A stretch of 23,607 bases of DNA from positions 1-23,607 of the IMG/VR virus record IMGVR_UViG_3300006810_012570. One strand, given 5' to 3'. Of this stretch, positions 642-17,921 are shown in pieces. Both the position numbers and the translations under genes were made by a program. Below the pieces are notes generated by a model that was not told where the DNA came from, searched no databases, and saw only the letters and a list, made by a program, of their open reading frames with translations. The stretch is from a virus. How positions within the stretch are numbered: position 1 is the stretch's first letter; every line of letters starts with the position of its first letter.

Positions 642-1762
642 TGGCAAATTTACTAGATACAAATATTAATGACACAGGATTTTTGACACTACCGGTCGGT
701 GCTGCAGGACAAAGATCAGCTGCATCACAAGGAATGGTTAGATATAGTACTGACACTAACACATTAGAATTTTATGACGGTAGTCAGTGGCGTCCTGTAA
801 CAGGATTCAGTAAAGGAACAGTAGGTACAGGTGGTAACTCTATTGTTTACGGAAATAACGGAATTTCACATCTATTTACAAGCACAGGTTCACATACGTT
901 CACACCTACATTTACAGGAACTATACAAGTACTAGTAGTTGGAGGTGGTGGTGGTTCTGGATATGACTGGGCTGCTGGAGGCGGTGGAGGCGGAGTTGTA
1001 TACAACCGTTCGTACCCTGTTACAGCAGGATCTGGTATCTCGATTACAGTAGGTGACGGCACAGGAAGTCATTACGGTCCAGGATGGAGTCAAGGATCTA
1101 CACCAGGACAAAATTCAGTATTTGGAACTATTACAGCTAACGGTGGCGGCGGATCAGGTTGTTGGGGACATCCACCGAGTGGTAGAGGTGAACCTAGTTG
1201 GAGTGGCCGTCCAGGAGGTTCTGGAGGCGGTGGAGGTAACACCGGAGATGGAACAGATAGTCGTAGAAGAGTAAGAGAAGGTGACGGAACTGCGGGCCAA
1301 GGATTTCCTGGAGGATCAGGAGTAAGATTTAACACGTCTGGTGATAATTGTCACTGGGGCGGTGGCGGTGGCGGTGCTGGCGGTAGAGGTCGCGATGCTG
1401 CTGACGAGAGACAAAATGCAATGGATGATCCAATGGGTGGTCCAGGATCAGCTACAGATATTTTAGGTCCTACACTTTATTTTGGTGGTGGTGGCGCTGG
1501 TGGCGCACATCACGGACATGGATTTTGTAACGGCGGTATTGGCGGTGGTGGCGGTGGTGGAATCTACCATGGCTCTCCATATCGTCCTGGCACCGACAGA
1601 CAAGGAGCAGGTGGCGGCCAAAGTCTTAACCACGGTCAGCCGTCAGGTGCACATAGAAATAGAGCAGACGGTGGCAACGGTGGTACTAATACTGGCGGCG
1701 GTGCTGGCGGAGGACAATGGGGTCAAAAAGGTGGCTCTGGTGTTGTTATTGTAAGATATTAA
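641..1762 (+). CDS. Glycine-rich tail fibre/adhesin-like protein with fibre-type N-terminus
   Basis: The 373-residue protein has three parts. Residues 1-55 carry the virion-fibre signature GMVRYSTDTNTLEFYDGSQW, which also recurs in the structural protein at 20449. Residues about 72-105 form a beta-rich segment (HTFTPTFTGTIQVLVVGGGG) typical of the glycine-rich domain. The remainder is polyglycine with interspersed His, Trp, Tyr, Arg and Asp, ending in GGSGVVIVRY. The start is set by the TAATG overlap with the upstream paralogue. No signal peptide or membrane segment is seen. The likely role is a tail fibre or receptor-binding adhesin. The glycine scaffold is conserved with the upstream copy while aromatic and charged residues differ, as expected of variable recognition loops. 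Its stop overlaps that of the halogenase gene on the other strand by four bases. Confidence 0.8.
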   Translation: MANLLDTNINDTGFLTLPVGAAGQRSAASQGMVRYSTDTNTLEFYDGSQWRPVTGFSKGTVGTGGNSIVYGNNGISHLFTSTGSHTFTPTFTGTIQVLVVGGGGGSGYDWAAGGGGGGVVYNRSYPVTAGSGISITVGDGTGSHYGPGWSQGSTPGQNSVFGTITANGGGGSGCWGHPPSGRGEPSWSGRPGGSGGGGGNTGDGTDSRRRVREGDGTAGQGFPGGSGVRFNTSGDNCHWGGGGGGAGGRGRDAADERQNAMDDPMGGPGSATDILGPTLYFGGGGAGGAHHGHGFCNGGIGGGGGGGIYHGSPYRPGTDRQGAGGGQSLNHGQPSGAHRNRADGGNGGTNTGGGAGGGQWGQKGGSGVVIVRY

Positions 1763-3315
1763 TCTTTGTAATAATTTGTATAAAGAAAATCTTTTAATGA
1801 CGGCAACTCTTTAACAGCATTATTCCATTCAGCCTTGCGCATATCTAGACCCACAATAGCCTTTCTATACCAAACTTTATTATCTTCAATTTCTTGGTTG
1901 AATCCATTGATTATGATTTCATCCATAGGATACCAATTCATACCTGCAGCAAGGCATAATAAACCATTATCTAAAGGCAATTGCCAATCGTTAAATTTTT
2001 TCCAGATGGTATGATGTAATAGGCGTTGTGTTTGTAATTCGCCTAAATTTGCAAGTTCTGATAGATAAGATCTTGACGTCACATCTTGCCAATATGAAGT
2101 ATCATTTCTATGAGACAGAGCGTAGTGCATACAAACAAACTGCGCAAAGTAATCAAACTGGTCTATACTAGTAGAATTATATTCGTCAATATCCCATTGG
2201 CTTATGTTTTTTCTTCTAAGAGCTCTGCATAAATTTATGGCAAATTCGTATACTGTTACAAGTCCTGTGCTTTCTAAAGGTTCAATAAATGCTGCACTTA
2301 AACCTACAGCAACCACGTTGTTAACCCAAAGTTTTTTGTGCCTTCCTACACGCATCTTTATATCACGAAACTCTAAAGAATCAGTTTGATGTCCTTTGTT
2401 ATTGAGATATTGTTTAAATTCCTTTAAAGCATTTTCAGAGGAAATGTGTTTGTCGCTATACACATAGCCTGTTCCAACTCTACTCCATAAAGGTATATTC
2501 CAAACCCAGCCATAATCTATAGCTGTACACTCTGTAACTGATTGCAATTCTTTATCTTTATCAATATAAGGAACTCTAGTAGCCCAAGCGCGATTATTTG
2601 GTAATAAGTTTTCATATGAAATAAAAGGTTCTTGTAATGATTCTCCTAACAACAAACTTTTAAATCCTGTACAGTCCACGTATAGATCAGCTGACAATTT
2701 CTCTCCATTTGATAATTGTAGATATTTTATTTGTCTATTTTTTACAACAGGAGATACATCTGCAACTATATGTTTTACACCGTTTGGTAAACAGATATGA
2801 TTTTTCAACCAAACACCAAACTTACTTGCATCAAAATGAAATGCCGTATCTTCATAAAATTTAAAATCTGGAATGTTTGGGTCAACAGAAATTTTATTTT
2901 GTTTTACTAAACTCATTTGAGGGTAATAACAATCTGTCATATCATATTCTGGTGTATCTGGATGTAGAGATTTTTTAACAAACCAATCATTACGATTGTA
3001 AATATTTTCTTTTAGATGTGGTCCACCAAATGGATAATACCATGTATTACCTTTCTCATAAAAGTTATTAAATTTAATTGCTAACTTATAACTAGCATCT
3101 GTCTCTTTTACAAATTCTTCGTCTTTTATTCCTATCATGCGCATCCACCTGCGGATACCGCCTACAGTGCTTTCTCCTACTCCCACAGTTGGAATATCAC
3201 TGCTTTCAACTAATGTTAATTCTACATTTTTTATTTGTTTTACAATCGTAGAAGCAGTCATCCATCCTGCACTTCCTCCTCCTACGATTATTATTTTTTT
3301 AATTGGTGTTGCCAT
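1759..3315 (-). CDS. Flavin-dependent tryptophan-type halogenase (Hal-1)
   Basis: The protein has 518 residues, the normal size for the tryptophan halogenase family (PF04820; PrnA, RebH, VirX1). The N-terminal Rossmann FAD-binding motif is GGGSAGW (12-18), followed by VGVGEST (44-50). The conserved lysine that forms or holds the haloamine/HOX species is K77 in DASYK. The WxWxIP signature is WVWNIP at 270-275, and the substrate-side FxxPxxSxG motif is FIEPLESTG at 343-351 with its catalytic-type Glu. All expected catalytic residues are present, so activity is likely: FADH2, O2 and halide would halogenate an aromatic substrate. Substrate and halide cannot be read from sequence; the phage relative VirX1 prefers iodide. 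It lies 63 bases downstream of the 213-aa gene in the 6204->1759 minus-strand block. Hal-2 is its nearest relative in the window. Confidence 0.93.
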   Translation of the reverse strand: MATPIKKIIIVGGGSAGWMTASTIVKQIKNVELTLVESSDIPTVGVGESTVGGIRRWMRMIGIKDEEFVKETDASYKLAIKFNNFYEKGNTWYYPFGGPHLKENIYNRNDWFVKKSLHPDTPEYDMTDCYYPQMSLVKQNKISVDPNIPDFKFYEDTAFHFDASKFGVWLKNHICLPNGVKHIVADVSPVVKNRQIKYLQLSNGEKLSADLYVDCTGFKSLLLGESLQEPFISYENLLPNNRAWATRVPYIDKDKELQSVTECTAIDYGWVWNIPLWSRVGTGYVYSDKHISSENALKEFKQYLNNKGHQTDSLEFRDIKMRVGRHKKLWVNNVVAVGLSAAFIEPLESTGLVTVYEFAINLCRALRRKNISQWDIDEYNSTSIDQFDYFAQFVCMHYALSHRNDTSYWQDVTSRSYLSELANLGELQTQRLLHHTIWKKFNDWQLPLDNGLLCLAAGMNWYPMDEIIINGFNQEIEDNKVWYRKAIVGLDMRKAEWNNAVKELPSLKDFLYTNYYKD

Positions 3316-3378
3316 TGTTTTTCCAAATTGTATAACTATCGTATCTTTCTTTTAATGGCCTATATTTGTTTTTATTTC

Positions 3379-4020
3379 TTATCTCGTTACAAGCAATAAT
3401 TCAATCCATGGTACTGGATTTTTTTTCAATTTAACAATATTCTCATCTAAAAATTTAAAATAAGCCAAAGCATCGCCTTTTTTTATTGATATTTTTTCTA
3501 TAGTATTTTCGATTTCAAATACTAACTCTAAAGGCCTCACCCATTTGCTAATATCGTATTCACCAGGAATAACCTTTGTCTTTTTTGTAAAATCGTTATA
3601 GTGTAAGAAGGCTGGAAGTGTTTGCAAAATAATAGAATGTTTGCAAGTAAATGTATTAAGAAAGTCTATTCCTAATAAAGGAAAAGGACTTATACCTTTT
3701 TCTTTTTTGTCAAAAAAACGTATATCTATCATTTGGTCAAAAAATTCTTGATCTACATTATTACACCATACGCTTGCATCATTTTTATCAACTTTAATTT
3801 CTATATTTAAATCCATTGGACTACAAAACACAAATGTATTTTTAAAAAAATCTGTGACCGCTGGACATTTGGCATATGTTACGCCTTTTCTGTTTTTCAT
3901 TAAGTCTTTAAATAATGGTTGATATCCATTATAGTCTTCAGTAATAAATCTTTTTGCTGAACTAGGATTATCTAAATTGTATTCATGTCCTGTGTGAAAA
4001 GACCAATTAACTGTTTTCAT
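3379..4020 (-). CDS. Protein of unknown function next to Hal-2 (213 aa)
   Basis: I do not recognise the family. It is soluble-looking, without signal peptide or membrane segment. It appears distantly related to the 242-aa protein on the other side of Hal-2. Both share a Cys-x-x-x-T/D region followed by an N/F..V...P.DL.IE strand (here from CPAVTDFF at about residue 53), and a later I/F-x-K/A-G segment running into a hydrophobic strand (KKGDALAYFKF). The start codon overlaps the end of Hal-2 by 14 bases, so it is translated as part of the same mRNA. The tight coupling suggests a partner or substrate-recognition factor for the halogenase, but this is inference only. Confidence 0.7.
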   Translation of the reverse strand: MKTVNWSFHTGHEYNLDNPSSAKRFITEDYNGYQPLFKDLMKNRKGVTYAKCPAVTDFFKNTFVFCSPMDLNIEIKVDKNDASVWCNNVDQEFFDQMIDIRFFDKKEKGISPFPLLGIDFLNTFTCKHSIILQTLPAFLHYNDFTKKTKVIPGEYDISKWVRPLELVFEIENTIEKISIKKGDALAYFKFLDENIVKLKKNPVPWIELLLVTR

Positions 4021-5479
4021 TTGCTACTCGGTATTGTTCGTGTATTCTGTTTAGAGTACTTAAATGGTCTATACTATTTTCCGCAATATATTTTTCTTGT
4101 AAAATATATTCTGCTAATAATTTTTCTCTTGACTCTTCTTCTGAAAATCCAGTATGTCTCTTAGCTACATCAAAATTCATTTGACATAACCAAGTTGTCC
4201 AATTACACCCAATAAATATACTGTTAAAATGACCATCATAGGGCAAAGGATGATTATTGTTTTTTAGCATTTCTATATAAAATTTCATTCTGTCAGTTTT
4301 AACAAATGTTTCATTTACCCAATTCCAAAAATTAGTTTTACGTTTGTTGTCGTAATAGTGCATACTTACAAAATCTACGCAATCTTCAAAAAGTATTTGC
4401 ATTTGTGTATTAAAATATTTTATATCAAGTTCTGTTATAAATTGTTCTCTAATAGCATTAGCCAGTTGTGTTATACCACTTGTTATCATAGCAACACCTG
4501 TGCTTTCTAAAGGTTCAATAAATCCTGCACTTAAACCTATGCATACTCTATTTCCTTCCCACATATCCTTGTAATAGTAAGGAGTCCAGTCTAATACTTT
4601 GACATCATTAACAGTAATTCTGTTGTCCCAATAATTAACAAAATATTTCTTTGCTTCTTCGATATCAGTAATTTTACGATTAAAAACAAGTCCGCTACCA
4701 ATTCTTGAATATACTGGTATATTCCAAATCCAACCATGATCTACTGCTTCGCTAATTACATAAGGGTGAAGTTCCTTTTGTTTGTCTTTATATGGTACAT
4801 GTCCTGCTATTGCGGTATTGCAAAACAATCGATCCTGCAAATCGATCTTATACTTAGGTGCACCTAAAATATTTTTCCAACCAGTACAATCTACAAATAA
4901 ATTACTTGTAATATTTTTTCCATTTTCTAATTCTATAGATGTGATGATATCATTATCTTTGTTGACAACAACAACTTCGCTGTCTATGTAATTAATTTTA
5001 ATTTTATTTTGAATGTATTTTACTAATTTACCGCAATCGATATGAAATGCATAGCTTTTTAATGAATTATTATTAACTTTATTTTCAATACTGGCTTGGT
5101 ATAATGCACTAGCATATTTCTTAAAGTCTAAATCTTGATTTTGTGACCACAAATCTTGTAGCCTAAACTTTTCATTTATTTTCGTTGGCCTTTTAAAAAA
5201 TGGGTGCCAAATATCCTTGTTTTTTTCCTGCCAATTTTTAAAAAGAATACTGCTTTTGTATGATGCATCTGTCTCTGTAAACCATTCAAAAAAAGGAAAA
5301 CCACATTCTTCTAAAAAATCACCAATGTTTAAAAGTGTTCCCTCGCCCACTCCCACGGTTTGAGAAATTTTTTTATCTATTAACGTAATATCTAAATGTG
5401 GAATTTGATTCTTTAAATAAGCAGCAGTTAACCATCCAGCAGTTCCACCGCCTATAATAGCTATACTATTAATTTTCAT
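4007..5479 (-). CDS. Flavin-dependent tryptophan-type halogenase (Hal-2)
   Basis: This 490-residue protein has the full set of halogenase signatures: FAD motif GGGTAGW (10-16), VGVGEGT (42-48), the conserved lysine K75 in DASYK, WIWNIP at 250-255, and FIEPLESTG at 320-328. It should therefore be an active FADH2-dependent halogenase. It shares with Hal-1 the canonical S-x-G form of the second motif and a 43-base DNA stretch, encoding that motif, with only one difference. Its start overlaps the upstream 242-aa gene by four bases, and its end overlaps the downstream 213-aa gene by 14 bases, giving a tightly coupled three-gene unit. The physiological substrate is unknown. Confidence 0.93.
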   Translation of the reverse strand: MKINSIAIIGGGTAGWLTAAYLKNQIPHLDITLIDKKISQTVGVGEGTLLNIGDFLEECGFPFFEWFTETDASYKSSILFKNWQEKNKDIWHPFFKRPTKINEKFRLQDLWSQNQDLDFKKYASALYQASIENKVNNNSLKSYAFHIDCGKLVKYIQNKIKINYIDSEVVVVNKDNDIITSIELENGKNITSNLFVDCTGWKNILGAPKYKIDLQDRLFCNTAIAGHVPYKDKQKELHPYVISEAVDHGWIWNIPVYSRIGSGLVFNRKITDIEEAKKYFVNYWDNRITVNDVKVLDWTPYYYKDMWEGNRVCIGLSAGFIEPLESTGVAMITSGITQLANAIREQFITELDIKYFNTQMQILFEDCVDFVSMHYYDNKRKTNFWNWVNETFVKTDRMKFYIEMLKNNNHPLPYDGHFNSIFIGCNWTTWLCQMNFDVAKRHTGFSEEESREKLLAEYILQEKYIAENSIDHLSTLNRIHEQYRVANENS

Positions 5480-6204
5480 TTTTTACCTTTGTTCTTTTTT
5501 GATAAAATACTTTTTGCTCTTGCATATCCGTCAACAAAAAACGGAAAACTTAAATTATTCATTACTCTTTGAATTTCATCATCTCCTACAAGATGACATT
5601 TTAATTCAATATTATCATCTGTCATAGGTATTAGATGCGCCATCGGTCTTCCAGCTTTGAAAAAATATTTTGCACCTTTACGTAAAAACATATTAATATT
5701 AGTAGTGTGTTGATACTTGTATTCAACTAATCCGGGAGGAGTGCATTGATTCATTAAGTCTCTTGGATGATTCCAAGGTAAATCCATATATAAAAAATTT
5801 ACTCCTGTTTTTTCTTTAATTCTCCAAGGGCTTATAATTTTTGTATGTGTATATTGAGAAAATTCTTCACCTAGTTGATCCAAAGGATGAAATCCCACAG
5901 TACTCATATTGTCTGCAAATTGATAGGCAAAGTCAGCACCTCTAGTTTCAATGAGTAGGTCGCTCCATAAAGGTAAAACAATTCCGTTTCTATATAAATT
6001 TGTTAGTCCGGCGCAGCCTTTCATTGTTCTTTGAGGAATGACTAGTCCCTGAGCAGTTTCTGTTTCAAAATTATTTGGTAATTTTTTCCACCATTCGGGT
6101 AAAAAATGAGTTGCTTTTTTTATAGGAAATAAATCATGTGAATACGCATGATTTGTAAAGCAATCTATTGTTATTGTTTTTCTCTTTTTAAATATTGTGA
6201 ACAT
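5476..6204 (-). CDS. Protein of unknown function, first gene of the Hal-2 operon (242 aa)
   Basis: I do not recognise a named domain. The N-terminus has a short basic stretch, then DLFPIKKATHFLPEWWKKLP (about residues 25-44). A Cys-x-x-x-T motif follows (CAGLTNLYRN) with a DLLIE strand, and near the C-terminus there is FFKAGRPMAHLIPMTD. The order of these elements parallels the 213-aa protein downstream of Hal-2, so the two look like distant paralogues flanking one halogenase. The start at 6204 has a Shine-Dalgarno AGAGGT about six bases upstream (6210-6215 on the complement). It is the first gene of the 6204->1759 block and overlaps Hal-2 by four bases. A role with Hal-2, as adaptor or enzyme, is inferred from coupling alone. 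Confidence 0.7.
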   Translation of the reverse strand: MFTIFKKRKTITIDCFTNHAYSHDLFPIKKATHFLPEWWKKLPNNFETETAQGLVIPQRTMKGCAGLTNLYRNGIVLPLWSDLLIETRGADFAYQFADNMSTVGFHPLDQLGEEFSQYTHTKIISPWRIKEKTGVNFLYMDLPWNHPRDLMNQCTPPGLVEYKYQHTTNINMFLRKGAKYFFKAGRPMAHLIPMTDDNIELKCHLVGDDEIQRVMNNLSFPFFVDGYARAKSILSKKNKGKK

Positions 6205-6274
6205 TTTTTACCTCTATGTAATTTACTTATCTGATATGAAGTGGCCATAAAAATTTTCTACTAAATATCTTACA
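6205..6274. promoter_or_regulatory. Divergent intergenic promoter region with late-type element
   Basis: These 70 bases separate the Hal-2 block (minus) from the four-oxygenase block (plus). On the plus strand CTAAATA lies at 6261-6267, matching T4/cyanophage late promoters, only seven bases before the ATG at 6275. Transcripts from it would be nearly leaderless. For the minus strand only a weak GATAAGTA (complement of 6224-6231) is seen. Promoter use is inferred from motif and position. Confidence 0.45.
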
Positions 6275-6868
6275 ATGCATATTATAGATGAGTTTTTACC
6301 AAAAGTCAAGTTCAATAACCTTGCAAATTTTGTAATGTCGAACAAATTTCCATGGTTTTATGCCGATCAAGTATCTTTGCCACCGGAGGAACATAATATT
6401 AACGATCCGTACGCATTAGAAACAGATGGTTGGTACCATATGCTGTACTCAGATGACGAAGATTACAAAAATGGCGGCATGTTCTTTGATGCATTTTTAG
6501 ATTTTTTTGAAAAACTTTCTCAGACTTTTGGATACACGCAAGACGATTTGTTAAGAGCAAGACTTGGGTTAAAAGTTCCTAAATTAGGATACAATAAAGA
6601 AAATTATAATTTGCCCCACATTGATGTAAGATCTTCGCACGACACAATCATTTATTATTTAAATGACAGTGACGGAGATACTAGAATTTTTGAGGAAAAT
6701 TATAGGGATTATAATGATAAAGAGCCCACAAAATTTACTGTTAAAGATACTGTTCAACCAAAAGCTAATCGATTATTACTAATTGACGGATTTCAGTATC
6801 ATACAGCTAGTAATCCTATACATGTAAATAGACGTATAGTACTGAATGTGAATTTAAAATGCAAGTAG
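6275..6868 (+). CDS. 2OG-Fe(II) oxygenase, prolyl-hydroxylase-like (197 aa)
   Basis: This is a compact double-stranded beta-helix oxygenase that would hydroxylate a substrate using Fe(II), O2 and 2-oxoglutarate. The visible ligands are H115-x-D117 (PHIDV), the distal H176 (QYHTAS) and R187 in RRIVLNVN as the 2OG-carboxylate anchor, in the usual order and spacing. The DSDGDTRIF segment after the HxD strand is typical of cyanophage and bacterial P4H-like enzymes. It resembles the oxygenase at 11803-12459, sharing GWYHMLY/GLYHMLY, DSDGDT and YHA/YHT, so the two are paralogues beside different halogenases. It is the first of four plus-strand genes and overlaps the next by ten bases. The substrate could be a protein side chain or a small molecule. 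Confidence 0.85.
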   Translation: MHIIDEFLPKVKFNNLANFVMSNKFPWFYADQVSLPPEEHNINDPYALETDGWYHMLYSDDEDYKNGGMFFDAFLDFFEKLSQTFGYTQDDLLRARLGLKVPKLGYNKENYNLPHIDVRSSHDTIIYYLNDSDGDTRIFEENYRDYNDKEPTKFTVKDTVQPKANRLLLIDGFQYHTASNPIHVNRRIVLNVNLKCK

Positions 6869-7467
6869 AAAATATCTTTCCAACACCAATTTTAAAATTT
6901 GATCTACCTGGATCGTTAATAGAAAAAAGTTTAGATTTAGCAGAGAAATTTGTTGGAAAAAATAAATGGTATGAAAAGAATCATTTAGGAAGTACAATTA
7001 CAACGTATCACGAAGACATAGAGAGAAACTATTGCGGTAATAATGACAGTGATTTATCAGAGCATGTTATAGAGATGATTAGAAAATATTTACACGGAAT
7101 AGGTTTTGACCCAAATTCTAGCATAAGATTAGAAAGTTGGTTGAATTTAAATAAACCAGCCACACACCACAGCGTACACGAACATTATGGTAGTTTTGTA
7201 AGTGCAGTAGTGTGGCTAAAGACAAGTAAAGATAGCGGAAATTTTGTATTTCACGAACCGCTTGGTGTAAAAGCACAAAATTTTACTCAATACTTGTTTG
7301 CTAAAAAAGAAGAAAATATGTACAATTATCCTTTGTATAGTTTAAATCCTAAATCAGGTAACGGAATAATTTTTCCGTCTTGGATGCCTCATCAAGTACA
7401 GCCAAATAAATCTAATCAGGATAGATATAGTGTTGCCTTTAATGCATGGATGATAAAAGATGGCTAA
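6859..7467 (+). CDS. Putative 2OG-Fe(II) oxygenase, PF13759/TIGR02466-like (202 aa)
   Basis: It begins with the family-typical FPTPILKF. The core strand HEHYGSFVSAVVWL and the following SGNFVFHEP match the 'HxH-gS-x-SGvyYl...G...f.dP' pattern of this family. Candidate metal ligands are H107 and H109, with distal H178 (MPHQVQPN) and R189 (DRYSVAFN) for 2OG. The first pair reads H-x-H rather than H-x-D here and in two sister genes (7460 and 10176), so which residue replaces the acidic ligand is unclear. The start overlaps the previous gene by ten bases, and its end overlaps the next start by eight. Such proteins are widespread in cyanophages, and their substrate is not established. Confidence 0.8.
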   Translation: MQVENIFPTPILKFDLPGSLIEKSLDLAEKFVGKNKWYEKNHLGSTITTYHEDIERNYCGNNDSDLSEHVIEMIRKYLHGIGFDPNSSIRLESWLNLNKPATHHSVHEHYGSFVSAVVWLKTSKDSGNFVFHEPLGVKAQNFTQYLFAKKEENMYNYPLYSLNPKSGNGIIFPSWMPHQVQPNKSNQDRYSVAFNAWMIKDG

Positions 7468-8041
7468 TATAGAACTTTGGTTTCCCACGCCGATTTATAT
7501 TCAAAAAAATCTATTTCCAACAAGTTTCAACAAAGAAATAGAAAATGAAATATTAAAATGGCCTAATACAATACCTAGTGGTGGTACAGATTGGGAAGGA
7601 GGAACATATACAACTCATATTACACACGATTTATCTGAAAGTAAATTACTAGAACCTGTTATAGAATGTGTTACTGAGCATGTTAATGATTTTGCTAAGG
7701 CACATAATAGTATGTATGAATATAAAATGGAACACAGTTGGGCTAATATTTCACGACCTGGTAATTTCCAAGAATTTCATACACATGACGGCAGTATTTT
7801 TAGTGCTGTGTATTATGTAACAGTGCCTAAAGGTAGTGGAAATATAATTTTTGAAGATCCTAGAGCTCCTGATATGTTACCGTTAAAAGAAATAAAAGAT
7901 AGAAACGAGTTATCTTATGTAAAAGTAGGATATACACCCGAAGTAGGTACCCTAGTTATTTTTAGATCTTACGTAAGACATTGTGTGCAAACAGGCACTA
8001 ATGTAGAACCTAGAATAAGTTTAGCATTAAATTATGGATAA
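7460..8041 (+). CDS. Putative 2OG-Fe(II) oxygenase, PF13759/TIGR02466-like (193 aa)
   Basis: A paralogue of the preceding gene, it opens with LWFPTPIYIQ and has the core FHTHDGSIFSAVYYV followed by GSGNIIFEDPR. The first ligand pair is H107-x-H109, the distal His is H174 (VRHCVQ) and the 2OG-binding Arg is R185 (PRISLALN). The length and the order of motifs fit the family. The ATG at 7460 lies inside the end of the upstream gene (8-base overlap), so it is translationally coupled. The following gene starts three bases after its stop. It is likely a hydroxylase of unknown substrate that acts with its block neighbours. Confidence 0.8.
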   Translation: MANIELWFPTPIYIQKNLFPTSFNKEIENEILKWPNTIPSGGTDWEGGTYTTHITHDLSESKLLEPVIECVTEHVNDFAKAHNSMYEYKMEHSWANISRPGNFQEFHTHDGSIFSAVYYVTVPKGSGNIIFEDPRAPDMLPLKEIKDRNELSYVKVGYTPEVGTLVIFRSYVRHCVQTGTNVEPRISLALNYG

Positions 8042-8044
8042 ACT

Positions 8045-10162: not shown

Positions 10163-10175
10163 TTGTATGATTAAA

Positions 10176-10787: not shown

Positions 10788-11813
10788 TTTATTTTTGTAA
10801 GCAATTATTTCTGATTCATGAGACATATTTCTAAACTTTTCTTCAATTAAATTTGCATATGCTATTTCTATTAATTCTTTTTCAAAACAGTTATCATTTA
10901 ATAATTGTTCATCTCTATTTGTTAAAGAACAAAATTTAAAAACTAAATCTTCAGCACTATCCCCAATGATAGTTTTAATATTTTCACGATCTAATAAAAG
11001 CTGATCAAAAAATTCTGTACCATATACCGAATGAAACATACCTGCTAAACATGTGTCTTCAGATCTTTTTTGAATTTTCAAAATCCGCCAAGTATTTTTT
11101 AAATGTTCATATAAGGTTGATTCACTGTGCTTTATGTTTGAACAAATTTTTTGCAAAAACTCTAAAGCATTTATTTCCCGTTCAGTAAGCACTACATTTT
11201 CATCAAAAAAATCAGAAATTGGAAAATCAGTATAATAATCTTTGTGGTTAGGGTGTGTAAATTTTAATGTAAGTACGTACCTAAAATCTTTTGCAAAAAA
11301 ACTAGGTTGAGAAGATTTGTGCGGAATTGTTCCTGTAAATAACACAACTCTGTTTGGTTTAAAAGAACAACTGTGTATAATTTCTTGTCCTAAAGTATCA
11401 CCAAAATGTGTTTCTCCTTCCCAATTTTCTTCCCATGCTGTATTGCAGTAATATAATAATGTAAAATCATCATCAATATTGCTGTCAACATGATAATGAT
11501 ACACATCTTGAGCTGTACTTAAATTGACATAAGCTCGATGTAATCTAAAATTATGTGTTTTAATTTTATCTCTTAAGAATTTTAAATTAGGTGCTGTAAA
11601 AAAATTAATTTTTAATAAGTCATGTATGTTAAATTCACTTAATAAAGTCTTAAATTGTTTATCTTGAGGCACAGAACTACTAGCTGTGCGATTTAATCTA
11701 TAAGCACAATTTTTTACAAATTCGTACAAGTAACAATGCTGTGAAAAATCAAAAACATCGTCATAAATGTCAATAAATTTTGTTTCGTCTACTTTTATTT
11801 TTCTATGATTCAT
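10764..11813 (-). CDS. 2OG-Fe(II) oxygenase fused to a DUF6817-like (HD-type helical) domain (349 aa)
   Basis: Residues about 1-195 form a P4H-like oxygenase: H108-x-D110 (YHVDSN), WEGETHFGD, distal H165 (TIPHKSS) and R178 (FRYVLTL). Residues about 215-345 are a separate helical domain with HSESTLYEHLKNTWRIL, then CLAGMFHSVYGT (H261) and a later IGDSAEDLVFKFC. This matches my recollection of DUF6817, an HD-phosphohydrolase-like fold whose usual His-Asp reads His-Ser. The fusion is twice the length of the other oxygenases here. It is the last gene of the Hal-4 block and its start overlaps the upstream oxygenase by 11 bases. The second domain may bind a nucleotide-like or carrier-linked substrate. 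The oxygenase call is firm and the DUF assignment moderate. Confidence 0.8.
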   Translation of the reverse strand: MNHRKIKVDETKFIDIYDDVFDFSQHCYLYEFVKNCAYRLNRTASSSVPQDKQFKTLLSEFNIHDLLKINFFTAPNLKFLRDKIKTHNFRLHRAYVNLSTAQDVYHYHVDSNIDDDFTLLYYCNTAWEENWEGETHFGDTLGQEIIHSCSFKPNRVVLFTGTIPHKSSQPSFFAKDFRYVLTLKFTHPNHKDYYTDFPISDFFDENVVLTEREINALEFLQKICSNIKHSESTLYEHLKNTWRILKIQKRSEDTCLAGMFHSVYGTEFFDQLLLDRENIKTIIGDSAEDLVFKFCSLTNRDEQLLNDNCFEKELIEIAYANLIEEKFRNMSHESEIIAYKNKLEKIKTK

Positions 11814-12459
11814 TTTTTTCTACAAAGTCAAAGTTAATAACAATCCTTTTACCATATGTAATTGGATAATTTCCTGCATGGTATCTATTTCCGTTAAAAA
11901 CTATTGCTTCTCCTTTTTTTGGTGTGTGTTTATATACCACTGTTAATTCTTCATCGAGAAAAGGATCATATTCATCAATTCCTGGTTTATGAAATTTACT
12001 AAACAATATTGTATCGCCGTCGCTGTCATCTACATAGTAAATTAGTGTTTTAAAATCTATATCATCATTAAAATCAACATGCGGTGCCGCATATTTGGTG
12101 TTGTTATGACCAGGAATAGGATGAGTGTACCGCATTCTTATTCTAAAAATTGTTTGTATATGTTTATCAAATATATCACAATAATTCTTTAATATAGGAG
12201 CAAAAAAATCTAAATCCTCCGACCTTTTTATGCCTTCATCATATAACATATGATATAAACCGCCAAAGTCACTTACATTTTTATCTTTATAAGGACTTTT
12301 GTTGTCGGTTGAATATTGGTTATGTCCAATTTTATCTATTGTATACCAAGGAAAGCTATTGTCTCCTTTTATTTTTTCTAGAATACTTTTTTGATACTCT
12401 TGTGGGATAATGTTTTTGATTACAAAGATATCATCTTGTATATTTTTTACATTATACAT
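11803..12459 (-). CDS. 2OG-Fe(II) oxygenase, prolyl-hydroxylase-like (218 aa)
   Basis: The ligands are H127-x-D129 (PHVDFND), distal H194 (RYHAGN) and R205 (GKRIVINFDF), the complete set for a 2OG-dependent hydroxylase. It is a paralogue of the gene at 6275: both contain G-x-YHMLY, a DSDGDT turn after the HxD strand, and a late YHA/YHT strand. It overlaps the end of Hal-4 upstream by eight bases and the 349-aa oxygenase downstream by 11 bases, so halogenase, hydroxylase and hydroxylase fusion are made from one message. The coupling suggests that both chemistries act on the same molecule or in sequence; this is inference. Confidence 0.87.
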   Translation of the reverse strand: MYNVKNIQDDIFVIKNIIPQEYQKSILEKIKGDNSFPWYTIDKIGHNQYSTDNKSPYKDKNVSDFGGLYHMLYDEGIKRSEDLDFFAPILKNYCDIFDKHIQTIFRIRMRYTHPIPGHNNTKYAAPHVDFNDDIDFKTLIYYVDDSDGDTILFSKFHKPGIDEYDPFLDEELTVVYKHTPKKGEAIVFNGNRYHAGNYPITYGKRIVINFDFVEKNES

Positions 12460-13993
12460 GTTTTTCTCTTAGTTTTCTAAAATAGTTTATCATTTCATTC
12501 CAAGTAGCATTTTTGGAATATTGCTCATGCCATTGTTTTTGCATGTACAGATAATTTTCTTCAACTGATTTATAGATGTTACCTAACCTGGGTGCATCAA
12601 AATTGATTTCTTTAAATGCAAGATCTCTATCAATTACTCCTATACCTTCCATTACGTAACTATATAGCGGCCATCCTGCTGCACCATAATATTTTGGAAA
12701 ATCATTAACATTAGGATATCTTACTTTTGCTGTTTCTATTAAATTTTCTACAAACTCTGTTCTAGTCGCTCCAGATTTAATATGTTTCCAAAACTCTGTA
12801 TCGGTTCGTCCTCCCATATAATGCATAACCAAAAAATCTTTGAAGTCGTCAAACATTGTTCTAGTACGTTTATTGTAAATATTAACTGTTCCTGAATTGA
12901 TTGTAGATTCTAAATCGTCTCGTAAGTAATCAAAGGTAAAGTTTTTTATTTGGACTATTGTAGAATGAATACTTGTTGCTTCTAAAGGTTCTAAAAATGC
13001 ACTTGATAAACCAATAGCAAGACAGTTATTAATCCAAGATGATTTTTGTCTTCCTGTGTTAAATTTGATTACTTTTTGCACATCAATTTCTCTTCCTAAT
13101 CGTTGTTCAATTTCTTGATGAGCTTTCTCTGGAGTAGTAAAATCGTCACAGAAAACATATCCGTTTCCTATTCTATCTAATAAAGGTATCTGCCACATCC
13201 ATCCTGCATCTTGAGCCCAGGCATGTGTATGCGGCATTGGCAGTTCATCTTCTTTATAGTCTAGTAAAAATGGTAAGCCTGTGTTGACCGGTAGATGTTT
13301 TTGATAACTTACCCAGTCATTACCTGGCATTTTACTAATAAGTAGTCTTGAAAATCCCGAACAATCAATAAAAAAATCTCCTTCTATTTTCCTACCGTCT
13401 TCTAATATAATATTATTAATAAACCCTTTTTCATTTAATGTACAATCTAATACCTTTGCGTCTATGTGCGAAGTATTTGGTTTTCGTAAAGTAACTTTTT
13501 GAAAATATTTTCCAACTAAATGGGCATCAACATGCATTGCATGTGTAAGATCTACAAACTGACCAGTAGATAAGTCAAAATTTGTATATCCTTTGTTAAT
13601 GTAGTTACCAGTTTCTGAAACTTTTACAAGATCTTTTTTTGCAAGATTAGCACATCCGTATGCAAAAAATATATCAGGTGTGTGTTCTTTGGTAAGACTG
13701 CCGTCAATTGGTCCTATATAATAGTCATTAGTGTCTGGAGTCCAACCTGTAAACTTAATACCATATTTGATTGAGGCGCCCGTTTCTGCAATAAACTCAT
13801 TGTGATCACAACCAAAATCCCACAAATGGTTATTAAGTAAATCACTTAGTAATCCTGTAGTGCTTTCCCCTACACCTATGATTCCTATCTTAGTAGACTC
13901 TACAACTTCAATCTTATGATTAGGATGTCTACTAGATAACATAAGTGCAGCCATCCAACCTGCTGTACCACCACCGACAATAACTATTTTCAT
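12452..13993 (-). CDS. Flavin-dependent tryptophan-type halogenase (Hal-4)
   Basis: The protein has 513 residues, with FAD motif GGGTAGW (7-13), IGVGEST (39-45) and the conserved lysine K76 in GASIK. WMWQIP at 265-270 is the intact WxWxIP signature. The second motif is FLEPLEATS at 333-341, the A-x-S variant also found in Hal-3, with the Glu retained. It should be an active FADH2-dependent halogenase with a pocket closer to that of Hal-3 than to Hal-1 or Hal-2. The start has an AGGAAG Shine-Dalgarno (complement of 14001-14006) and lies downstream of a minus-strand CTAAATA element at 14025-14031. It leads a three-gene block with two oxygenases. Confidence 0.93.
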   Translation of the reverse strand: MKIVIVGGGTAGWMAALMLSSRHPNHKIEVVESTKIGIIGVGESTTGLLSDLLNNHLWDFGCDHNEFIAETGASIKYGIKFTGWTPDTNDYYIGPIDGSLTKEHTPDIFFAYGCANLAKKDLVKVSETGNYINKGYTNFDLSTGQFVDLTHAMHVDAHLVGKYFQKVTLRKPNTSHIDAKVLDCTLNEKGFINNIILEDGRKIEGDFFIDCSGFSRLLISKMPGNDWVSYQKHLPVNTGLPFLLDYKEDELPMPHTHAWAQDAGWMWQIPLLDRIGNGYVFCDDFTTPEKAHQEIEQRLGREIDVQKVIKFNTGRQKSSWINNCLAIGLSSAFLEPLEATSIHSTIVQIKNFTFDYLRDDLESTINSGTVNIYNKRTRTMFDDFKDFLVMHYMGGRTDTEFWKHIKSGATRTEFVENLIETAKVRYPNVNDFPKYYGAAGWPLYSYVMEGIGVIDRDLAFKEINFDAPRLGNIYKSVEENYLYMQKQWHEQYSKNATWNEMINYFRKLREKHV

Positions 13994-14031: not shown

Positions 14032-14047
14032 TGAAATTGGAGCCACC

Positions 14048-14644
14048 ATGGAAAAAAACTTGTTCTTAGAAACATATTATATGGATGAAAGTATATGCGA
14101 GAGGTTGATTAAAACGTTTCATGCACACCCAAGAATGGATCCTAAACAAAAACCTATGAATTTTGAAGGCGGCAAACTGGTAACAGCATCTCCATCTGTA
14201 AAAGAATCTACTGATTTATCATTAACAATAGACGATAGTTTAGATTTTCCTGTTGTTGCTGAATATGTTGAACAATTACAAAAATGTGTCGAAAAATATA
14301 TAGAAAAATACCCATCTTGTGATATGTATGCTCCATGGAGATTGCTTAGACCATTAAATATACAATGGTATAAACCTGGGCAAGCATACCATGCATGGCA
14401 CACTGAACGCTGTAGTGGCAATCCTATTACAGTTACTAGGCATTTAGTTTTTATGACATATTTGAATAATGTTACGGATGGAGGAGGAACAGAATGGCTA
14501 AATCAAAAACTTACTGTAAATGCAGAAATTGGAAAAACTGTTATTTGGCCAGCTGATTGGACTTTTACACATAGAGGAATCCCTTCTCCGACACAAGAAA
14601 AATATATCATTACAGGTTGGTTTAATTACGTGGACGAAACATGA
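14048..14644 (+). CDS. 2OG-Fe(II) oxygenase-like protein with HxE metal motif (198 aa)
   Basis: The double-stranded beta-helix core is clear: NIQWYKPGQAYHAWHTE, then LVFMTYLNNVTDGGGTEW, then GKTVIWPADWTFTHRGIPSP. The metal-binding pair is H118-x-E120 instead of the usual HxD, the distal His is H175, and the 2OG-anchoring position ten residues later is K185 rather than Arg. Both substitutions are chemically tolerable (some family members use HxE, and some bind 2OG by Lys), so activity is possible but not certain. The stop overlaps the Hal-5 start by four bases (ATGA), making the two a coupled pair. Its own start has GGAG six bases upstream, after a late-type GATAAATA. Confidence 0.82.
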   Translation: MEKNLFLETYYMDESICERLIKTFHAHPRMDPKQKPMNFEGGKLVTASPSVKESTDLSLTIDDSLDFPVVAEYVEQLQKCVEKYIEKYPSCDMYAPWRLLRPLNIQWYKPGQAYHAWHTERCSGNPITVTRHLVFMTYLNNVTDGGGTEWLNQKLTVNAEIGKTVIWPADWTFTHRGIPSPTQEKYIITGWFNYVDET

Positions 14645-15819
14645 AAAAAATTGCAGTATTAGGTACAGGGACAGCAGGAGTTGTTTCATTAGCTCATTGT
14701 TTAGCATTTTTTACAAATGAATGGCAGATTACTTCAGTATATGATCCAAATATTCCTATGTTAGGAATAGGAGAAAGTACAAGCACTCAAATACCAACAA
14801 CATTATTTTATGGTGCAGATCTAAATTTTTTACAAGATATGTCTGAACTTGATAGCACAATTAAACATGGAGTAAAATATGTAAATTGGAGGGAAAAAGA
14901 CTTTTTTACTAAAATACCTCCTCCTTTTTATGCTATGCATTTCAATAACTTTAAACTTAAAGAATTTGCATTTAAAAGATTTAAAGAAAAATGGAACAAT
15001 AAGTTCCAAGTATTAGAAGGTGAAATAAAATCTTTAGATAATTTACAACAAAAAGCTGTAATTAATTTTGTAGATAATACCAGTCATGATTTTGATTATG
15101 TCATAGATTGTAGGGGATATCCTAAAGATTATTCAGAATACGAAATGGTAGATATTCCTGTTAATCATGCCATTGTAAATATGATACCAAAGCCGGGAGA
15201 TTGGAATTATACGTATCATTATGCACATCCTAATGGTTGGATGTTTGGTATTCCGTTGCAGTCAAGACAAGGATGGGGTTATTTGTACAATGATAAAATT
15301 ACAACAAAAGATGAGGCAATAGATAACATTGCTGAAATATTCAATACAGATAAAAACAAACTTAATTTACGTGAATTCTCATTTAAGAATTATAAAGCAA
15401 AAAAGTTTATAGACGGAAGGATTATAAAAAATGGAAATAGAGCTATATTCTTTGAACCGTTAGAGGCTCTATCTGGTTGGATGTATGATTCTATAATAAG
15501 AACTTTTTTTGATGTAGTGTTAGCGAATGTTCACACAGAAGAAACCGCAAATATTCATTTACACAACTTAGCCGAAGACTATGAATTATTCATCAATTAT
15601 ATGTATCACGGCGGCTCTACTTTTGATAGCACATTTTGGCAAATAACATCAAAAAAATGTAAAGAAAAGTTAGAATCTAATCCTAAATGGCAACAACATG
15701 TTAATACTATGAAAGGATTAGAACCAGCATATTATACAAACCAAACTTTAGTATTTCCATTTCCGGCAGGAGTTTGGAAAAATCTAGATCAAGACATGCA
15801 GTATCATTATTTTGATTGA
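14641..15819 (+). CDS. Short flavin-dependent halogenase-like protein (Hal-5)
   Basis: The protein has 392 residues, about 100 fewer than the family norm. The reading frame is uninterrupted, so the shortening is not a frameshift. It keeps FAD motif GTGTAGV (8-14), LGIGEST (41-47), the conserved lysine K75 in DSTIK, and a Glu in FFEPLEALS (270-278). The WxWxIP signature is WMFGIP (200-205), with the second Trp replaced by Phe as in Hal-3. The missing part lies mainly between K75 and the signature and at the C-terminus. It starts inside the end of the HxE oxygenase gene (four-base overlap). It is probably a compact halogenase with a more open substrate site; a related flavin monooxygenase activity cannot be excluded. 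Confidence 0.82.
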   Translation: MKKIAVLGTGTAGVVSLAHCLAFFTNEWQITSVYDPNIPMLGIGESTSTQIPTTLFYGADLNFLQDMSELDSTIKHGVKYVNWREKDFFTKIPPPFYAMHFNNFKLKEFAFKRFKEKWNNKFQVLEGEIKSLDNLQQKAVINFVDNTSHDFDYVIDCRGYPKDYSEYEMVDIPVNHAIVNMIPKPGDWNYTYHYAHPNGWMFGIPLQSRQGWGYLYNDKITTKDEAIDNIAEIFNTDKNKLNLREFSFKNYKAKKFIDGRIIKNGNRAIFFEPLEALSGWMYDSIIRTFFDVVLANVHTEETANIHLHNLAEDYELFINYMYHGGSTFDSTFWQITSKKCKEKLESNPKWQQHVNTMKGLEPAYYTNQTLVFPFPAGVWKNLDQDMQYHYFD

Positions 15820-15845: not shown

Positions 15846-15865
15846 TATAACTAAAAGGACTAACT

Positions 15866-16486
15866 ATGGATAACGAATCGACATTTGAACAAAACAGCGG
15901 ATTTACAGATGCTGCTGTACAAGAAACTACATCAACTAAACTTGCAAGTTTAGATATTTTATCAGTAAACGTAGCAGAACTTTTTAATGATGAAGATTGT
16001 AAAACAATACTAGACGGATGTTTAGAAGATCTTTGGATTAAATCAAGAGTAGTTGGTGAGAAAGAATTGCACTCTTCTAAACGTCAAAAAATTAGAGGAG
16101 AAGTTGAAGGATTTCCCTTTCAACATATTAGATCTATTACAAAACAAGCCAATGACGAGATCTACGATTTTAGATTATTAGGAATTATTGATCAAGATTT
16201 TCCGCAAATTTTTAAATACAGTGAAAATGACTATTATGATTGGCACATAGATATTACTCCAATGGCTACTACTCGTAAAATGTCATTTATTATAAATTTG
16301 TCAGATAAAAGTGAATATCAAGGCGGAGAATTAGAATTTTTAAATACAGACACTTCAAAAATTGATTGTAATACTAAAGGATCAATTGTTATTTTTCCTA
16401 GTTTCTTAACTTGGAAAATAAATTCTGTTACCAGCGGCGAAAAAAATATTATCTTAGGACATGTTCATGGAGCAATTTTTAGATGA
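15866..16486 (+). CDS. PKHD-type 2OG-Fe(II) oxygenase homologue lacking key residues (206 aa)
   Basis: The first 35 or so residues are a polar, low-complexity leader. The core follows the PKHD-hydroxylase plan: H127-x-D129 (WHIDI), KMSFIINLSD, YQGGELEF, then IVIFPSFLTW and VTSGEKN. Compared with the intact neighbour at 16483 (FPSHIYHQVTPVTSGTR), the distal metal ligand His is W183 and the 2OG-binding Arg is K193. Two of four canonical catalytic residues are therefore changed while fold-defining residues remain. It may be a non-catalytic partner of the next gene, whose start overlaps its stop by four bases, or may use altered chemistry. It follows a sigma-70-like promoter and a good Shine-Dalgarno. 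Confidence 0.83.
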   Translation: MDNESTFEQNSGFTDAAVQETTSTKLASLDILSVNVAELFNDEDCKTILDGCLEDLWIKSRVVGEKELHSSKRQKIRGEVEGFPFQHIRSITKQANDEIYDFRLLGIIDQDFPQIFKYSENDYYDWHIDITPMATTRKMSFIINLSDKSEYQGGELEFLNTDTSKIDCNTKGSIVIFPSFLTWKINSVTSGEKNIILGHVHGAIFR

Positions 16487-17277
16487 TTTTAAACTATAAT
16501 TACTGGTATTTTGTTTCTGCATTGCCTGAAGAGGTATGCGATAAAATTATTGAAACCGGGTTAGAAAAAATGTCGGAAGCAAAACGTAATTATGGAAATT
16601 ATGCAGTTGAAGGCACTACAGGCGATTGGAAGGCAAAGTCCGATTTAGATCCTAATTTAGTTAAAGATGCCGCTGACATTACCCTAGAAGAAGCACTCAA
16701 AGACGGTGACGATGTAAATAATTTTGCACTAAGAGATAGTGAAGTTTCGTGGTTAAATGATGATTGGCTGTACAAAACTATTTGGCCGTTTATTCATGAG
16801 GCAAATAGGCAAGCAGGCTGGAATTTTGATTGGGATTTTACCGAAGACATACAATTTACAAAATATGGTTTAAATCAATATTATGGTTGGCATGCCGATT
16901 GTGGTGTATTACCTTATGAAAAATATGATCCTGCAATCCATTCAACCAAAAAAGATAAAGATGGTAACGACATGCTGAATGCCTTTGGTGATCCGTTGCC
17001 CTTAGAAAGTCATGTTACTGACAATCCTCAGATGTGGAACAAAATTAGAAAACTTAGTGTAACAATTAGTCTATCAGATCCTAATGATTATACAGGCGGA
17101 AACTTAAAATTTGACTTAGGACCACATAGACCAGATAGATATCACGAGTGTGAAGAGATCCGTCCTAGAGGAAGTATAGTTGTTTTTCCGTCGCATATAT
17201 ATCATCAAGTTACACCTGTAACATCTGGAACACGATATAGTTTAGTTTGTTGGAGTTTAGGAAAACCATGGAAATAG
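16483..17277 (+). CDS. PKHD-type 2OG-Fe(II) oxygenase (264 aa)
   Basis: This is a complete prolyl-hydroxylase-like enzyme of a type common in T4-like cyanophages. H137-x-D139 (GWHADCG) and H241 (IYHQVTP) bind iron, and R251 (GTRYSLVCW) ten residues later binds 2-oxoglutarate. The conserved LSVTISLSD and YTGGNLKF strands lie between them. An insertion of about 45 residues after the HxD strand, rich in Lys, Asp and Pro, makes it longer than its neighbours and may form a substrate lid. Its start overlaps the degenerate homologue upstream by four bases, so the two could form a heteromer. The substrate is unknown; a host or phage protein is likely for this family. Confidence 0.9.
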   Translation: MILNYNYWYFVSALPEEVCDKIIETGLEKMSEAKRNYGNYAVEGTTGDWKAKSDLDPNLVKDAADITLEEALKDGDDVNNFALRDSEVSWLNDDWLYKTIWPFIHEANRQAGWNFDWDFTEDIQFTKYGLNQYYGWHADCGVLPYEKYDPAIHSTKKDKDGNDMLNAFGDPLPLESHVTDNPQMWNKIRKLSVTISLSDPNDYTGGNLKFDLGPHRPDRYHECEEIRPRGSIVVFPSHIYHQVTPVTSGTRYSLVCWSLGKPWK

Positions 17278-17921
17278 TAAATCATAAAAATTTTCAAGAA
17301 AACAGATATATTGCTCTACAAGGGATTATACCAAAAGATATTTGCAATATTACTACACAATATTGTCTATTGCAAGAAACCGTAAACCCAAAAAAAGAAG
17401 ATGATAATGGTCAAGTTCCCTACTCTCATAGTATATACGCTGATACATTAATGGAAACATTGATGGTTTTTATGAAACCGCATATGGAAAAGTATACCGG
17501 ATTAGAACTTTGCCCAACTTATTCTTATTTTAGAGTTTACAGACCCGGAATGGAATTAGAGCGTCACACAGATCGTCCAAGTTGCGAAATTTCTACAACA
17601 ATATGTTTTGGATTTAATTATTTAGATGTAGATTCTAGTTATAACTGGGGCATGTATGTTGATCCTACCTATAGACACAATATACATGATCAAGACTTTA
17701 TTTCTAAAGGTAATAAGGGTATAATGACCCCTCAACAGCCGGGAGATTGTATAATATATAGAGGATGCGAAATAGAACATTGGAGAGATCCATTTGAAGC
17801 AGGCTCTAACAGTTATCAAGTACAAGGGTTCTTTCATTACATAAATAAAAATGGGCCATATTACCCTGAATTTGCTTACGATAAAAGACCTGGTGTTGGT
17901 TTCAATTCAAATAGCAAGTAA
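17268..17921 (+). CDS. 2OG-Fe(II) oxygenase, P4H-like (217 aa)
   Basis: The motifs are YFRVYRPGMELERHTDRPSC with H100-x-D102, a CFGFNYLD strand, then GDCIIYRGCEIEHWRDPF with distal H171, and YQVQGFFHYI closing the core. The EHWR-to-HY arrangement occurs in bacterial and phage P4H-like enzymes and seems to place a Gln (near residue 186) where others have the 2OG Arg. The start was set at 17268 rather than the in-frame ATG at 17247: TAGGA ends six bases before it and the overlap with the upstream gene falls to ten bases. The C-terminal tail NGPYYPEFAYDKRPGVGF is polar and probably flexible. Confidence 0.87.
   Translation: MEIVNHKNFQENRYIALQGIIPKDICNITTQYCLLQETVNPKKEDDNGQVPYSHSIYADTLMETLMVFMKPHMEKYTGLELCPTYSYFRVYRPGMELERHTDRPSCEISTTICFGFNYLDVDSSYNWGMYVDPTYRHNIHDQDFISKGNKGIMTPQQPGDCIIYRGCEIEHWRDPFEAGSNSYQVQGFFHYINKNGPYYPEFAYDKRPGVGFNSNSK

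Follow-up and report, generated by a model that had tools for sequence, protein, structure and literature searches.

We analysed a linear virus fragment of 23,607 bases from an uncultured phage (IMG/VR record IMGVR_UViG_3300006810_012570; hereafter the window), in which an island of oxidative enzyme genes at positions 1759-17921 adjoins genes for glycine-rich fibre tips. Along the + strand the window carries two glycine-rich tip genes, the island, a fibre assembly chaperone gene, GroEL and GroES on the opposite strand, and genes for a fibre-like protein and for a subtilase (S8). An initial annotation, drawn from the letters of the DNA alone, had described 18 open reading frames (ORFs) in the island as five flavin-dependent halogenases (Hal-1 to Hal-5), eleven 2-oxoglutarate (2OG) oxygenase-like genes and two further genes on either side of Hal-2. 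All 18 ORFs were recovered where it had placed them, and the two remaining genes do flank Hal-2. Comparison of the window with its relatives suggests that the enzymes chemically decorate the tips with which the phage grips its host. The first tip gene (3-641, + strand) is the 3' part of a gene that starts outside the window. It corresponds to a tip of 369 amino acids (aa) at 39387-40496 of a related 61-kb contig, which matches phrog_2295 (E 1.4e-53) and, weakly, phrog_863 'tail fiber assembly' (E 3.9e-4). The second (641-1762, + strand) encodes a fibre-tip protein of 373 aa with 31% glycine, which scores above the cut-off of PF21722 (E 9.9e-9), matches phrog_2295 (E 1.5e-46) and is a candidate substrate for the enzymes.

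All five halogenases exceed the curated cut-off of PF04820 (110.6 to 369.7 bits against 21; E 1e-31 to 3e-110) and match phrog_2928 'tryptophan halogenase', which confirms the assignment of the initial annotation. Hal-1 (1759-3315, - strand; 518 aa, E 2.8e-110) is VirX1-like, both by its place in a halogenase tree and by its best PDB sequence match, VirX1 itself (6qgm, E 6e-104). Hal-2 (4007-5479; 490 aa, E 2e-83), Hal-3 (8644-10128; 494 aa, E 5.9e-92) and Hal-4 (12452-13993; 513 aa, E 2.2e-99) also lie on the - strand, and Hal-5 (14641-15819, + strand; 392 aa) is a short type that matches PF04820 in two stretches (E 1.1e-31), with about 65 profile positions absent. Pairwise local alignments among the five give 28-36% identity. 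Each retains the GxGxxG motif for flavin adenine dinucleotide, and the active-site lysines named earlier (K77, K75, K76, K76 and K75) fall into one invariant alignment column. This lysine and the glutamate of the FxEPLE motif, which correspond to K79 and E346 of PrnA, are present in all five and in 52 of 52 aligned halogenases (window included, G001 left out). The WxWxIP motif is complete in Hal-1, Hal-2 and Hal-4; Hal-3 and Hal-5 have phenylalanine for the second tryptophan, a position occupied by W in 33 and by F in 19 of the 52 aligned sequences.

A tree of 66 halogenases assigned the five window genes to five ortholog groups, every one of which has a cultured relative. Hal-1 groups with a pair from syn9 and with S-RIM44 and Sf-CH11, Hal-2 with S-SSM7, Hal-3 with P-SSM2, Hal-4 with Syn1, the third S-RIM44 gene and the second Sf-CH11 gene, and Hal-5 with the short S-SSM5 gene; long branches leave some of the deeper joins unsure. 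The island thus collects five old subfamilies, not recent copies.

The eleven oxygenase-like genes were upheld in part: seven exceed a Pfam cut-off and four were assigned on weaker evidence. The seven, all on the + strand, comprise three PF13759 members (6859-7467, 202 aa, E 7.3e-22; 7460-8041, 193 aa, E 2.2e-21; 10167-10787, 206 aa, E 1.1e-21), three PF13640 members (14048-14644, 198 aa, E 7.2e-9; 15866-16486, 206 aa, E 5.1e-10; 16483-17277, 264 aa, E 1.7e-12) and a DUF6445 protein that we count as 2OG-like (8045-8665, 206 aa, HSD motif; PF20043 E 2.2e-8, phrog_1644 E 8.5e-29). Among the other four, the 349-aa product of 10764-11813 (- strand) falls just short of the PF13640 threshold (E 1.1e-5, 26.8 bits against a cut-off of 27) and joins its 2OG domain to DUF6817 (E 7.6e-20), an unusual fusion. 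The 218-aa product of 11803-12459 (- strand, HVD motif) falls below the same cut-off (E 8.5e-4, 20.7 bits) and matches phrog_274 (E 6e-31), as does the 197-aa product of 6275-6868 (+ strand, HID motif; E 1.1e-31), which shares 34% identity with it over 162 aa and whose best Pfam match is DUF6445 at 13 bits against a cut-off of 24. Profile sets iterated from these last two proteins recruited 8045-8665. A direct comparison of 8045-8665 with the 11803-12459 set (E 1.8e-26) was discarded as circular, the set already containing all eight members of the 8045-8665 family. The fourth gene, 17247-17921 (+ strand; 224 aa from a TTG start), has no Pfam match and hits phrog_2954 'ferrochelatase' (E 1.2e-42). 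It carries an HTD motif, and H107xD109 and H178 are invariant across 10 members. Profile comparison joined it to sets from three window oxygenases at E 3e-5 to 2e-4 and to two more oxygenase sets at E 0.0013 and 0.029, against E 0.11 to 0.46 with unkA, Hal and DUF6445; these oxygenase sets overlap each other, and none includes a member of the 17247-17921 family.

The iron-binding HxD or HxE motif is found in eight of the eleven, and in the three PF13759 members the corresponding stretch, judged by eye, has HxH. In 15866-16486, and likewise in the three close orthologs shown, the distal iron-binding histidine is replaced. We note that the PHROG names 'DNA endonuclease V' (phrog_274), 'minor coat protein' (phrog_1644) and 'ferrochelatase' (phrog_2954) fall on families matched by 2OG-like window proteins, and annotations copied from these names may mislead. 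Phrog_274 was also tried as a counter of 2OG genes and dropped because its matches read through stops and carry the endonuclease V name.

The two genes around Hal-2, unkA (3379-4020, - strand; 213 aa, phrog_17480) and unkB (5476-6204, - strand; 242 aa, phrog_7084), belong to one family by profile iteration. A one-base difference from the 61-kb contig at window position 3401, either a sequencing error or a recent mutation, shifts the frame of unkA, which is thus shortened in the window from the 240 aa found in that contig. A structural model of the 240-aa form (predicted local distance difference test score, pLDDT, 83.7) suggests a dUTPase-like fold: the 50 VIA rows shown consist of dUTPases only (Z 7.6-9.1), and the best Foldseek match has E 3.3e-3. 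This is a statement about fold, not function. The unkB model (pLDDT 67) is too weak for use, and its best rows are again dUTPases (E 6.6e-3). Several identities were tried for the family and rejected. That both proteins are degenerate 2OG oxygenases is not supported, since the HxD motif is missing, and for unkA there is moreover no profile match to the oxygenase sets (best E 0.016) and the model resembles dUTPases. A label of DUF6065 found no backing either, as 17 family members gave no Pfam match at E up to 10, and the term is absent from the papers that a literature search listed. A search for bacterial homologs of unkA returned 133 pattern matches, none of which was confirmed.

The island is a real and recurrent arrangement. 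A contig of 61,061 bases (IMGVR 3300008012_000030) covers the entire window at 99.9% identity, with 22 mismatches and one gap, and a contig of 42,809 bases holds 100% identical copies of those halogenases looked up. The match to the 61-kb contig, together with the same gene order in diverged contigs, rules out an assembly chimera, which the initial annotation had named as a possible refutation. We searched 53 records with the PF04820 profile (30 of 50 loci and 19 of 30 loci, short or repeated contigs being dropped, plus four phages); these were picked by similarity to the window, not at random, and include several near-duplicates. With split matches merged, 18 of the 53 carry at least three halogenase genes and 11 at least four. 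In a later sample anchored on halogenases, described below, only 6 of 69 loci had at least three within the stretch fetched, so that large islands are uncommon.

Twelve assembled contigs, some of them near-duplicates (G001, G019, G021, G022, G024, G025, G027, G033, G035, G042, G043 and G045), share the order of fibre-sized genes, then one or three glycine-rich genes, then an enzyme block. In the eight three-tip contigs a chaperone-sized and a GroEL-sized gene follow the block, the family having been identified for the window's own genes only. Three-tip contigs carry four or five halogenases and one-tip contigs two or three (Spearman 0.84, n=10, two near-duplicates left out). Ratios of nonsynonymous to synonymous substitution rates (dN/dS) against orthologs in contig G018 came to 0.06 in both Hal-4 and Hal-5 and ranged over 0.06-0.20 in seven oxygenase-like genes, values that are rough because dS is 1.3-2.7; the nine testable island genes are under purifying selection. 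Among them is 15866-16486 (0.12), which, lacking its histidine, is perhaps a non-catalytic partner. The recurrent layout, the ortholog groups and the selection on these nine genes bear out the earlier proposal of a dedicated multi-enzyme modification system as opposed to a stray metabolic gene.

We then asked how closely halogenases are tied to tip genes. Loci were fetched on halogenase alignment alone, as the best 80 of at least 577 ranked on Hal-1, so that the sample represents mainly the Hal-1 type; 79 of the 80 were used (one was already in the earlier set), and 69 were left after merging at 90% identity, one of which (L195) is a contig met before. A gene was counted as tip-like if it encoded at least 140 aa with 17% glycine and three GGG. 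Across the 69 loci, tip-like genes numbered 24 at 0-2 kb from the halogenase, 20 at 2-4 kb and 9 at 4-6 kb, whereas the 173 kb of sequence lying 6-10 kb away contained none. With the anchor placed at random, gaps this short arose in 7 of 2000 simulations (35 loci; the median was 2.2 kb as observed and 2.9 kb at random). The density of 2OG-like genes falls over the same distances, from 7.1 to 0.3 per 10 kb. In nine contigs with one or two halogenases, of which G009 and G016 look like one lineage, the median gap to the tip was 1.8 kb against 6.4 kb for random positions, and 2 of 4000 simulations gave a value as low.

The linkage can also be separated from the oxygenases. Gene annotation of 26 chosen loci identified six (L020, L024, L027, L036, L106 and L107) in which a lone halogenase stands behind glycine-rich genes with one or two genes between, and the oxygenase profiles built here have no match in these stretches; in L016 and L021, also single-halogenase contigs behind tips, an oxygenase match is present. 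Lone halogenases without an oxygenase match indicate that the tie to tips does not run through 2OG genes alone. Single-halogenase contigs also show a conserved protein of 409-449 aa with several cysteines, directly or one gene before the halogenase (L036:8769-10004, L027:8760-10004, L016:6293-7642 and L021:8191-9420). The four copies scanned have no Pfam match, and searches gave only PHROGs of unknown function and no PDB match below E 0.1.

Enrichment of the tips in tryptophan was considered as a further line of support. Mean tryptophan counts per glycine-rich core were 3.1 in three-tip islands (24 cores), 7.5 in one-tip islands (4) and 3.0 in single-halogenase contigs (19), against 1.8 in cultured phages with a halogenase (11) and 1.0 in those without (3). 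The direction is the right one, and we did not use it as evidence because it is confounded by lineage and the numbers are small.

The position behind the tips is filled by different tailoring enzymes in different lineages. In 18 of 24 loci drawn with the P-RSM4 tip, the tip is followed by a gene of 538-559 aa on the other strand and then by 2OG-like genes, with no halogenase in the stretch; two of the 538-559 aa genes were scanned and are carbamoyltransferases (PF16861/PF02543). The P-RSM4 genome itself has no PF04820 match. Carbamoyltransferases also occur within the islands of G022, G024, G025 and G027 (read from the sequence, two of them scanned) and a methyltransferase within that of G043. 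Individual examples inside related halogenase islands are the carbamoyltransferases at L069:223-1938 and L072:4807-6513 and the methyltransferase at L115:6995-7675.

In one cultured phage species, tips and enzymes are gained or lost together. Eight isolates of S-RIM44 fall into two forms of four each. Form 1 (KX349291, 293, 294 and 296; 99.5-99.99% mutual identity over 14 kb of the block) has three tips, two halogenases, a relative of unkB, three 2OG genes over the Pfam cut-off, two weaker oxygenase-like genes and a JmjC_2 (PF08007) gene. Form 2 (KX349292, 295, 297 and KU594607; mutual identity at least 99.9%) has in the same place a 294-aa protein with 12% glycine, one 2OG gene and two small genes. 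After the block the forms are 96.5-98.6% identical, and both retain another halogenase elsewhere. The JmjC_2 gene (L187:25080-25805 in KX349291; PF08007 E 4.7e-19), annotated as hypothetical, lies within the exchangeable block. Among the members of PF08007 are hydroxylases of ribosomal proteins, in keeping with a protein as the target.

Taking these results together, we propose, at a probability of roughly 0.6, that the island is a tip-decoration module whose enzymes modify the adjacent glycine-rich adhesin tips. The proposal draws on the linkage, on its decoupling from the oxygenases and on the joint exchange. Gene content, intact catalytic residues, conservation, the linkage to tips and, within one phage species, the presence of tips and enzymes together or of neither are observed; from these we infer the activity of the proteins, the tip as substrate, the residues modified, the timing and the benefit. 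Late in infection the phage would make PF21722 adhesin tips from the genes beside the island, and by analogy with S16 gp38 these likely form polyglycine helices. Before or during mounting of the tips, the halogenases would put chlorine, bromine or iodine on exposed tryptophan, tyrosine or similar residues in the variable tip loops, the 2OG oxygenases would hydroxylate side chains in those loops, and unkA and unkB may assist, as accessory proteins or by handling the substrate. In other lineages a carbamoyltransferase, a methyltransferase or a JmjC-type oxygenase takes the same slot. The outcome would be a tip chemistry beyond the genetic code, altering receptor binding or stability.

Several observations weigh against this proposal. 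In the sample of 69 loci total ORF density also drops with distance, from 15.5 to 8.1 per 10 kb, and the outer bins come from longer contigs only. The 2OG genes are tied to halogenases (62 of 69 loci) more tightly than the tips are, and 31 of the 69 loci have no tip-like gene, as do 12 of 36 among loci of at least 12 kb. A PF21722 match is present in 25 of 50 halogenase-bearing IMG/VR records (window included), although many of these records are short and some glycine-rich genes escape the profile (G012, G022). Among 16 T4-like cyanophage genomes, the set of Sullivan et al. 2010, five have both a halogenase and PF21722, two and three have one of them alone and six have neither, an association that is not significant (one-sided Fisher P 0.16). 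The halogenases of P-SSM2, Syn1 and S-SSM5, the third of S-RIM44 and the short one of S-SSM7 lie at least 30 kb from a PF21722 match; S-SSM5 has the P-RSM4 layout yet keeps its short halogenase about 32 kb away. Islands and complete genomes were measured from the nearest of several halogenases, which favours short gaps. Finally, the adjoining fibre gene also differs between the S-RIM44 forms, and with only two haplotypes the isolates record one exchange, a strong example and not a statistic.

Alternatively, the enzymes could convert amino acids of the host or other small molecules into a diffusible metabolite that is halogenated and hydroxylated (an antibiotic, a signal or a host-fitness factor), their proximity to fibre genes being an accident of synteny. 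The cluster of S-SSM7 contains sugar genes, and VirX1 halogenates many small aromatics in vitro (PMC8407142). Yet such a product would leave unexplained the tie to tips, the lone halogenases behind them and the joint exchange in S-RIM44, and no scaffold-building enzyme (nonribosomal peptide synthetase, polyketide synthase or maturase of ribosomally synthesized and post-translationally modified peptides) was found among the 20 window proteins scanned, so that we think a metabolite unlikely. Of the two targets raised in the initial annotation, fibre proteins have gained support from the tip linkage and a host metabolite less, both being candidates.

Other targets altogether (different proteins of the virion, proteins or glycans of the host envelope, or nucleic acids) appear rather improbable to us, in that the repeated neighbours in the loci drawn are tip genes; some halogenase and 2OG genes do lie far from PF21722 tips and near other structural or fibre-assembly genes (Syn1, P-SSM2), and a role of 2OG enzymes in DNA repair has been proposed (PMC3037559). 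The linkage could also reflect a hot spot in the fibre region that takes up any cargo, with tips and enzymes sharing a variable fibre-to-neck interval without cooperating. The difference in that interval between forms of one phage (S-RIM44) agrees with this, as do metaviromic islands that contain fibre, lectin, terminase and Fe(II) oxygenase genes (PMC3909814). Mere hitch-hiking nevertheless strikes us as very improbable: nearly all identified cargo of the islands consists of oxidative or other tailoring enzymes, the same kinds recur as ortholog groups in diverged lineages with the tested genes under purifying selection, and lone halogenases sit behind tips.

The gene kinds of the window are known from phages, and its island is a larger version of a cassette already described in phages; what is new is the tie to glycine-rich (PF21722) fibre-tip genes. 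The initial annotation had set the five halogenases against a single one per cyanophage, a contrast that was too strong: cultured cyanophages carry one to three halogenases plus 2OG genes, with two in syn9 and three in S-RIM44. The block of syn9 and Syn10 (source of VirX1, PDB 6qgm) resembles the window in that its halogenases come shortly after PF21722 genes and are followed by a run of 2OG and related genes, and Hal-1 is the gene that links the two by tree and PDB match. It differs in having two halogenases of one group on one strand, whereas the window has five of five groups in strand-alternating blocks. The S-SSM6a/S-SSM7 cluster (Iyer et al. 2021, PMC7824862) is likewise a tailoring cluster with halogenase and 2OG genes, placed in S-SSM7 directly after three PF21722 genes and before gp13. 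Besides sugar genes it includes a pair of carbamoyltransferase genes, and it has a single full-length halogenase where the window has five halogenases; no PF02543/PF16861 or sugar enzyme of the S-SSM6a-type core occurs among the 20 window proteins. The exchangeable block of S-RIM44 (Vellamovirus) is similar in make-up, joining three tips to two halogenases, a relative of unkB and a number of oxygenases; it differs in having fewer enzymes, the added JmjC_2 gene and the third halogenase about 65 kb away. The gp38 tips of Salmonella phage S16 and of T2-type phages are similar as glycine-rich tip proteins adjoining fibre genes. We know of no modifying enzymes beside them. In S16-type and T2-type phages, host range is related to variation in the loops of these glycine-rich gp38 tips (PMC6851490, PMC12892980).

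Directly after the island lie a tail fibre assembly chaperone (17958-18377, + strand; 139 aa, PF16778 E 6e-21, phrog_4912), a phage GroEL (18374-20047, - strand; 557 aa, PF00118 E 5.1e-77, phrog_5725 E 1.6e-146) and a phage GroES (20047-20349, - strand; 100 aa, PF00166 E 5.7e-27), so that chaperones adjoin the island across 17958-20349; they perhaps help to fold fibre proteins or the enzymes. The last 270 bases (23338-23607) share 89-90% identity with a gene (baseplate wedge or hypothetical) of Synechococcus phage S-RIM2. In the phage collection the window has no other near match, and this one may reflect a recent exchange. The phage has a contractile tail, with a sheath nearest, among the matches listed, to jumbo phages of Agrobacterium, Pseudomonas and Sinorhizobium (42-48% identity). 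Two fibre genes of the 61-kb contig (L062:1949-3892 and 3919-9504) contain five and six CBM5/12 carbohydrate-binding modules, which may hint at the host surface.

For more than ten years there has been no agreement on what phage halogenases and the many 2OG oxygenases of phages act on. A halogenase gene (prnA) and multiple 2OG genes have been catalogued in T4-like cyanophages since 2010 (PMC2984593, PMC3037559), and halogenase-like genes were counted in 20 of 153 cyanophage genomes in one survey (PMC10452541). Proposals include antibiotic protection, DNA repair, 2-oxoglutarate and nitrogen balance, and secondary metabolites (PMC2984593, PMC3037559, PMC7824862), and other cyanophage papers offer antibiotic or DNA-repair ideas or list protein modification among possible 2OG roles (PMC9146016, PMC9964418). 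For the S-SSM6a cluster, the prediction of Iyer et al. was synthesis of a halogenated metabolite or decoration of the capsule (PMC7824862). Mizuno et al. assigned eight Fe(II) oxygenase genes of metaviromic islands to host recognition, with no mechanism given (PMC3909814). In the accessible literature that was searched, no statement of tip modification by these enzymes was found.

In its widest form, the idea is that tailed phages of aquatic habitats vary their receptor-binding tips not through sequence alone but also through enzyme chemistry, by means of exchangeable tip modules with their own halogenases, hydroxylases and carbamoyl- or methyltransferases that yield halogenated and hydroxylated adhesins, the five halogenases of the island serving different sites or tips. 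We advance this generalization tentatively, at somewhat less than even odds. If tip modification is indeed the role, genes now filed as auxiliary metabolic genes would become host-recognition genes, and post-translational chemistry would join the arms race between phage and host. The halogenase VirX1 is active, prefers iodide and has an open active site (PMC8407142), and that openness would then gain a reason.

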